Assembly: GCA_040905475.1 (NCBI GenBank)
Contig: JBBDRM010000050.1
Location: forward strand, 1-41,147
Length of the DNA: 41,147 nucleotides
Reading direction: 5' to 3'
Source: Actinomycetota bacterium
Lineage (GTDB): Bacteria; Actinomycetota; AC-67
Under the pieces are notes generated by a model. That model was not told where the DNA came from, did no database searches, and was given only the letters and a program-made list of their open reading frames with translations. The position numbers were made by a program, and so were the translations under genes. Positions 31,258-32,135 of this stretch are shown piece by piece. Positions within the stretch are counted from its first letter, which is position 1. Each line of letters starts with the position of its first letter.

Positions 31258-31330
31258 GGGGGTGTAGCTCAGTTGGTAGAGCGCTGCGTTCGCAACGCAG
31301 AGGTCGACGGTTCGAATCCGTTCACCTCCA
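31258..31330 (+). tRNA. tRNA-Ala (anticodon CGC)
   Basis: A complete 73-nt cloverleaf. The acceptor stem GGGGGTG pairs with CACCTCC and includes G3-U70, the alanine identity pair. The anticodon stem CTGCG/CGCAG closes a TTCGCAA loop with anticodon CGC. The T-arm is ACGG-TTCGAAT-CCGT. The 3' CCA is not encoded; the following bases are CTTG. Its 3' end abuts a toxin-antitoxin module and is repeated downstream. Confidence 0.95.
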
Positions 31331-31338
31331 CTTGTTAA

Positions 31339-31360
31339 AGTGTACGCTTCTATGTACACT
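31339..31360. promoter_or_regulatory. Operator of the tRNA-linked toxin-antitoxin module
   Basis: Perfect inverted repeat AGTGTAC-N8-GTACACT, 8 nt before the antitoxin ATG and 8 nt after the tRNA. Phd-type antitoxins bind such sites to repress their own operon. A decayed copy of it lies at 31997-32016. Confidence 0.7.
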
Positions 31361-31367
31361 CCTTCGT

Positions 31368-31655
31368 ATGGCAAGAACCGTACCGGTCAAAGAGTTGCGG
31401 GCCGAGCTGGCCGAGTTGCTCGATGACGTCGCCGATAGACGAGAACACGTCATCGTGACCCGACACGGCCGCCCGGTCGCGGCCATCGTTCCGATCGATG
31501 AGTACGAGGGGCTCGAGGAGACGGCGGAGGTGCTGTCCGACCCTGCGGCCGTCCGAGCGATTCAGCGCGGGATAGCCGACCTCAAAGCCGGCAAAGTCGC
31601 GACGCTTGATGAGGTCAGGGCGGATCTGGCGAAGCGTAAACGCCGATCTCGTTGA
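31368..31655 (+). CDS. Phd/YefM-family antitoxin
   Basis: A 95-residue protein from ATG 31368; an in-frame extension to 31332 would run into the operator. The N-terminal Phd/YefM domain (VPVKELRAELAELLDDVADR, then VIVTRHGRPVAAIVPIDEYEGL) binds DNA as a dimer. The charged C-terminus would wrap the toxin. The RelE-type toxin gene follows after 3 nt. The gene lies directly behind the tRNA with only the operator between, so readthrough from the tRNA could also express it. Confidence 0.92.
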   Translation: MARTVPVKELRAELAELLDDVADRREHVIVTRHGRPVAAIVPIDEYEGLEETAEVLSDPAAVRAIQRGIADLKAGKVATLDEVRADLAKRKRRSR

Positions 31656-31658
31656 TCC

Positions 31659-31922
31659 ATGGCTCGTATCGTGTTCTCGCGCTCAGCGCGCGAACAACTT
31701 GCCGCGCTCGATGTCCGGATCGTCGAAGCGGTTCTAGACACAGTCACCCTGCTCGAGGGGGATGCCGAAGCCGGCAAACGACTGCGGGGCCGACTTGATG
31801 GGCTGTGGTCACTTCGAATCGGCAGCTACCGCCTCGTGTACGAGATTCGAGCCAAGGCGAAGACTGTTCGCATCGTCGCAGTCCTCCCACGTCGGATCGC
31901 ATATCGCTCGGATCCGCGCTAG
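31659..31922 (+). CDS. RelE/ParE-superfamily toxin
   Basis: An 87-residue toxin of the RelE/ParE fold. The N-terminal strand is IVFSRSAREQL, a helical hairpin follows, then GRLDGLWSLRIGSYRLVYEI, the strand pair typical of mRNA-cleaving RelE toxins (Arg in the SLRIGSYRL segment). VRIVAVLPRR forms the last strand, and the C-terminus carries RRIAYR. It probably cleaves ribosome-bound mRNA and is neutralised by the upstream antitoxin. Confidence 0.92.
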   Translation: MARIVFSRSAREQLAALDVRIVEAVLDTVTLLEGDAEAGKRLRGRLDGLWSLRIGSYRLVYEIRAKAKTVRIVAVLPRRIAYRSDPR

Positions 31923-31966
31923 AGGATTAGCGATTCGATGGTGAGCCGGCGTAGAACTGAAAGTCT

Positions 31967-31990
31967 CGGTTCGAATCCGCTCTTCTCCAC
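31967..31990 (+). repeat. tRNA 3'-end-like repeat 2
   Basis: Identical at 21 of 24 positions to the tRNA-Ala tail 31308-31331, including GGTTCGAATCCG and CTCCAC. The bases upstream do not form a cloverleaf. The T-loop is common to all tRNAs, so it may come from another tRNA gene. Confidence 0.6.
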
Positions 31991-32024
31991 TTGAAAAGTG
32001 TACCTTATGATGCACTCTTAACTC

Positions 32025-32117
32025 ATGGCGAAGATCGTTCCAGTCAAGGAGCTGCGGGTCGAACTGGACTAGTTGCTTGACCAGGTTGCCGATCGTCGCG
32101 AGCACGTGATCGTCACC
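32025..32117 (+). pseudogene. Decayed second copy of the Phd-type antitoxin gene
   Basis: The frame reads MAKIVPVKELRVELD, then TAG at codon 16 (32070), then LLDQVADRREHVIVT. It aligns without gaps to the first 31 codons of the intact antitoxin (31368-31460) and then stops matching. It is preceded by a decayed operator (AGTGTAC-N8-GCACT) and a tRNA-like tail, so the whole block 31308-31460 is duplicated. The remainder of the copy, including its toxin, has been lost where the BNR-gene segment begins. Confidence 0.85.
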
Positions 32118-32135
32118 TGGATCATCAGGTGGGGT

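Follow-up and report, generated by a model that had tools for sequence, protein, structure and literature searches.

The window, the whole stretch of 41,147 nucleotides analysed here, carries two Phd/YefM-RelE cassettes at tRNA-Ala(CGC), an intact one (~0.65-0.66 kb) and a decayed one. Probably they are a row of toxin-antitoxin (TA) cassettes at the 3' end of that tRNA gene, moved by a large serine recombinase (LSR) acting in trans at tRNA-tail-like sites. With less assurance, we lean towards a general reading in which the 3' ends of tRNA and tmRNA genes are docks where a tRNA-targeting LSR clade collects one-module TA cassettes in rows, the attachment site being a tRNA-tail mimic that encodes the LSR C-terminus. 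Cassette collection has so far been tied to the integron integrase; tRNA-end-targeting serine recombinases seem to play a comparable part for TA modules across an actinobacterial-type phylum. If this is true, solitary chromosomal TA modules would have a concrete route to spread without phage or plasmid, some TA pairs beside tRNA genes would be explained, and a serine recombinase family with natural tRNA/tmRNA target sites would be at hand for study.

Two cassettes behind tRNA-Ala(CGC) in the window

The locus consists of the following parts, all on the plus strand (handles beginning with G, C and L denote genomes, contigs and loci throughout).

31258..31331, +, intact tRNA-Ala(CGC), the anchor, its 3' end being the presumed attB (ARAGORN; Rfam RF00005, 73.7 bits)
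31309..31334, +, 3' tail of tRNA-Ala(CGC), GGTTCGAATCCGTTCACCTCCACTTG, which recurs behind the toxin gene
31339..31360, +, perfect operator AGTGTAC-N8-GTACACT, 7 nt past the tRNA-Ala end (read from the sequence)
31368..31655, +, Phd/YefM antitoxin, 95 aa, ATG start (PF02604, 4.7e-21)
31659..31922, +, RelE/ParE-superfamily toxin, 87 aa (PF05016, 2e-11)
31923..31993, +, presumed right end of cassette 1, a spacer plus a tRNA-tail mimic (31968-31993), in the position equivalent to the 52-bp site of relatives
31997..32018, +, decayed operator AGTGTAC-N8-GCACTCT, opening cassette 2 (read from the sequence)
32025..32117, +, decayed and truncated second antitoxin, the remnant of cassette 2, with TAG as codon 16 (32070-32072) (tblastn)

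Both Pfam matches were above the curated cut-off, and the domains together with the operator indicate a type II TA pair of the Phd/YefM-RelE/ParE kind. As in YefM-YoeB and Phd-RelE modules, a PF02604 antitoxin accompanies a toxin of RelE/ParE fold and a palindromic operator precedes the antitoxin gene; what is unusual is the tRNA-docked cassette setting, not the proteins. The TA unit lies directly behind the intact tRNA and ends in a tRNA-tail mimic, upon which the next unit begins. This second tail (GGTTCGAATCCGCTCTTCTCCACTTG, 31968-31993) differs from the tRNA-Ala tail at 3 positions and is its sole other copy in the window at up to 5 mismatches. Codons 1-31 of the second antitoxin showed 81% amino acid identity to the intact antitoxin (tblastn), and the block as a whole recurs at 75% across about 150 bp with an E value of 4e-19; this repeat is therefore not due to chance. 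The initial annotation had described the same order of tRNA-Ala, operator, Phd-RelE pair, second tail, decayed operator and stopped antitoxin, with similarity running from the tRNA tail through antitoxin codon 31. Every detail that was checked proved correct.

No second tRNA-TA locus was found in the genome of the window (G000), and the two copies at this single locus belong to one family, the second of them decayed. Simple local duplication of a TA pair next to a tRNA, by slippage or recombination and outside any cassette system, would produce such a picture. We consider it unlikely, however: the repeated block begins inside the tRNA tail, its anatomy and spacing are as in rows elsewhere, and the pair most closely related to that of the window, found in a genome from its family (G002), likewise lies behind a tRNA, tRNA-Asn(GTT). 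Three relatives in that family possess tRNA-Ala(CGC) without this TA pair behind it; the site is therefore not always occupied. Elsewhere in G000, a tRNA-Ala-like gene has its first 25 nt repeated ~1.1 kb from tRNA-Ala(GGC) (C160, 3656-3729 and 4824-4848).

Related TA pairs, cassette rows and their right ends

An antitoxin-profile scan of bacterial genomes gave 55 loci, and a sample of the phylum added more; the set used below comprised 57 distinct loci with antitoxin identity of at least 50%. The operator GTGTAC-N8-GTACAC (up to 3 mismatches) preceded the antitoxin in 56 of them. At 11 loci the 3' end of a same-strand tRNA lay within 120 nt of the TA pair, against ~0.07 expected by chance (P about 1e-21; 8e-11 at a tenfold higher chance rate). 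The docking tRNAs were Val(CAC) four times, Tyr(GTA) twice, and Ala(CGC), Asn(GTT), Val(GAC), Leu(TAA) and a Ser/Tyr-like tRNA once each; the last (L091), called as Ser(GGA), closely resembles the tRNA-Tyr of L079 and hence is listed in this way. Spacing from the tRNA to the antitoxin start was 31-36 nt at 10 of the 11 loci and 97 nt in the tRNA-Asn case. A search for independent tRNA-TA junctions with one boundary, as proposed in the initial annotation, thus yielded 11 of 57 loci at seven kinds of tRNA; these loci, together with a ~90% identical cassette found behind different tRNAs, support its proposal of a compact cassette targeting tRNA 3' ends. Among the relatives in Nitriliruptoraceae and Thermoleophilia, none was directly behind a tRNA or had a tail mimic. 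Five Nitriliruptoraceae loci (L049, L058, L104, L105, L110) share another repeat (GCAACGCCCGG...) downstream of the toxin, possibly attC-like as in integrons.

In Acidimicrobiia-type genomes, TA modules occurred as cassettes of 0.6-1.3 kb in rows, each ending in a tRNA-tail-like site of ~52 bp. In most Acidimicrobiia-type loci the toxin gene is followed by this right-end site, which includes a T-loop-like GTTCGAAT together with an acceptor-like GGCCCACC, and where a TA pair had no preceding tRNA, such a site often occupied that place. Of 21 genomes, 15 contained a 26-nt pattern of the right end, while the reversed control gave none; the pattern often appeared in rows at a spacing of 600-1260 nt behind tRNA-Val(GAC), Val(TAC) or Val(CAC). 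Between the sites there were mostly single TA modules of various kinds in either orientation, and some cassettes had no recognised module. According to Pfam matches on partial sequences, the modules in rows included YefM-RelE, VapBC-type PIN pairs, HicAB, TacA-type, AbiEii-type and Rv0623-type antitoxins. A second class of right-end site (GTTCGTATTGTGTGNCCCAAGGCCCAC) is present within the same rows (L157 at 825 and 1710; L166 at 2740).

Comparison of cassette copies delimited these units. Copies of the YefM-RelE cassette behind Tyr, Val(CAC) (L081), Val(GAC) and Ser/Tyr-like tRNAs were 87-93% identical, and identity between tRNA-docked and row copies reached 95%. When a YefM cassette in a row (L157) was aligned with one behind tRNA-Val (L174), the match started at GCCCACC, the common end of tRNA and site. 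G450 and G441 share a 1023-bp stretch of 99.4% identity; the match breaks off where the site ends, and the following 60 nt show no similarity. G443 and G409 have a HicAB-type cassette in common at 96% identity, with unrelated right flanks. A left half-site (CGnTATTCGAAC), the inverted partner of the right end, was found at the left ends of several cassettes but is lacking in the YefM cassettes. Judged from these sequences, the cassettes appear to be self-contained mobile units made of operator, antitoxin, toxin and tRNA-tail-like right-end site. Against this reading, neither an empty site in a near-identical strain nor an excision product was seen; the empty-site comparison, in the genus of G409, found no relative that retains the flank. 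An exact search of viral contigs for the right-end site gave no match.

The single orientation and near-constant spacing of the docked pairs (31-36 nt in 10/11) would also be expected if TA pairs were favoured behind tRNAs by readthrough transcription, with no dedicated mobility. This is extremely unlikely in view of the sharp common ends of the cassettes, the rows behind one tRNA, the reverse-oriented pairs within rows, and the 99.4% identical stretch that has different right flanks in two genomes. The suggestion in the initial annotation that the TA pair stabilises an island integrated behind it found no support. In most loci the cassette or cassette row is itself the insertion.

Link between the right-end site and large serine recombinases

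The conserved ~52 bp of the site showed a three-base periodicity on the minus strand, and most right ends encode on that strand V-G-R-R-H-S-Y-S-N-x-x-D-[VL]-R-x-R-L or a near variant of it. In L169, the first cassette holds an LSR gene that meets tRNA-Val(CAC) head-on and whose final codons, FEYGDV, enter the antisense tRNA; the protein has the domains PF00239 (Resolvase), PF07508 (Recombinase) and PF13408 (zinc-ribbon). Related LSR genes are likewise placed head-on against Val(TAC), Ala(TGC) (twice), Leu(TAA), Gly(GCC) and Tyr(GTA), with C-terminal codons (...FEYG/FEYE) extending into the antisense tRNA; the LSR beside tRNA-Ala at L249 is a 64% relative of the L169 protein. Where the neighbour is a site instead of a tRNA, the LSR frame runs on as VGRRRSYSN..DVRQRL, the peptide of most right ends; such continuations read VGRRRSYSNSNDVRQRLEAL in L165/L244, with similar ends RYSNLGQLRDRL in L243 and YSNPAELREPL in L159. 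The right-end site is therefore the distal part of an LSR gene. With both halves combined, taken from right ends and from LSR left ends, the ~52-bp site (GAGGTTCGAATACGAGTGNCTACGGCCCACC + ACATCGCCGTATTCGAACTTC) by eye comprises two inverted half-sites around GGCCCACC, and this composite, next to the end of an LSR gene, looks as expected for a serine-recombinase attP. A reading of the site as an attC-like hairpin was rejected: the single strands folded weakly and inconsistently, and the conservation is better accounted for by the coding frame of the LSR.

The cassettes resemble those of integrons in size, arrangement in rows, TA content and growth from a fixed anchor, and an atypical integron, with a tyrosine IntI acting on degenerate attC sites and the tRNA end as attI, would account for these features. 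We regard it as very unlikely. The site reads GTTCGAA (core GTTCGAATACGAG), not GTTRRRY, and does not contain the boxes RYYYAAC...GTTRRRY; its codon periodicity is accounted for by the LSR reading frame. Among the PF00589 matches listed, none is on a row contig except one on G447:C49, upstream of the tRNA, in a test that relied on PF00589 rather than on IntI-specific models.

As a predictive check, the LSR search across the phylum covered 397 genomes and found relatives in 61, with 28 loci reaching the C-terminus. At 14 of the 28, the convergent 3' end of a tRNA or tmRNA was within 60 nt (Arg, Val, Met, Pro, Ile, Glu, tmRNA). The family of the window is represented: in G001 the LSR is 8 nt from tRNA-Glu(CTC), and in G002 a partial LSR adjoins a tail (GGGTTCGAATCCCGCCACCTCCAC) behind smpB, which is most likely the end of ssrA; this ssrA-like tail and tRNA-Ala(CGC) have CACCTCCAC in common. 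A search of phages and plasmids for close relatives of the LSR gave only matches below 60% identity, about 23-34% among those listed. It counts against the LSR reading that several genomes with cassette rows, G080 and G409 among them, have no LSR. G000, at 97% completeness, has no PF07508 protein, and hence no LSR was found in it. The minus strand of the right end in the window reads VEKSGFEPRLSVLRRLTIESLIL*; the frame is open and resembles ordinary antisense tRNA, and this right end is like an ordinary tRNA tail, unlike the 52-bp site of Acidimicrobiia. With the LSR missing and the right end simply tRNA-tail-like, the place of the window in the tRNA-docked cassette system is inferred rather than observed, and because G000 has no PF07508 recombinase, its cassettes are now probably stranded.

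Successive islands of tyrosine integrases at tRNA-Ala, of which only remnants are left, could also have placed a TA pair at the tRNA-side end, the second tail then being a classic attR. G000 encodes 19 tyrosine recombinases, and tRNA-Ala(CGC) in two genomes of other families has classic att-like tail duplications of 45-46 nt:

G010:C242, 14745 and 46845, tRNA-Ala(CGC) tail duplication covering tRNA positions 30-74, 32 kb apart
G038:C23, 53057 and 34334, tRNA-Ala(CGC) tail duplication covering tRNA positions 29-74, 19 kb apart

The cassette units, however, are of 0.6-1.3 kb and have no integrase gene; G080 has a row yet only two tyrosine recombinases (PF00589), probably XerC/D; and the coding sequence in the right-end site is that of LSR C-termini, not of a tyrosine integrase. 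We therefore think that island remnants are an improbable source of the window locus. A tyrosine recombinase was also considered as the mover of the cassettes and was rejected because the PF00589 matches listed showed no consistent linkage to rows.

Proposed route of cassette collection and comparison with known systems

In the favoured reading, an LSR supplied in trans would use the attP-like junction of a circular cassette to recombine it with the 3' end of a tRNA or with a cassette junction already present. Cassettes would be added one by one, leaving the tRNA undamaged. The TA pair, autoregulated via its own operator, may make loss of the cassette costly, so that cassette and site would stay occupied. 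The cassettes would then be passengers that use LSR attachment sites, forming an integron-like store of TA modules built on serine recombination.

Chromosomal integrons with TA cassettes, such as the Vibrio superintegron, are similar in their rows of one-module cassettes, recombination site at the 3' end, richness in TA modules and fixed anchor. They differ in three respects: the site described here is a tRNA-tail mimic encoding an LSR C-terminus and not attC, many tRNA genes serve as anchors in place of a single attI, and the linked recombinase is an LSR, not IntI.

Integration into tRNA genes by serine recombinases has been called rare, and elements of this type include Mycobacterium AICEs in tRNA-Leu and phage phiRSM1 in tRNA-Ser (PMC3218068). 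These elements likewise have an LSR at a tRNA 3' end, whereas here one LSR clade adjoins about a dozen types of tRNA as well as tmRNA, and its sites are shared by small passengers that lack a recombinase. tRNA ends are usually targeted by tyrosine integrases (PMC5704250, PMC8092301). The integrative mobilizable elements (IMEs) and islands that such integrases place in tRNA genes resemble the cassettes in the tRNA 3' target, the intact tRNA, tandem accretion and TA cargo, but are of kilobase scale with their own integrase, whereas the cassettes hold little beyond a TA module (PMC5704250, PMC8092301). In the papers that we searched on TA cassettes beside tRNA genes, no such arrangement was described.

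Two further observations concern recombinase genes. In G443, G447, G450 and G457, tyrosine recombinases are numerous, up to 70 in G457, and many stand in tandem as pairs or triples that resemble recombinase-in-trio elements. At L263, L088 and L172 (G453, G080), 3' remnants of LSR genes lie between tRNA-Val and TA cassettes, which suggests that the LSR was lost while the cassettes stayed.
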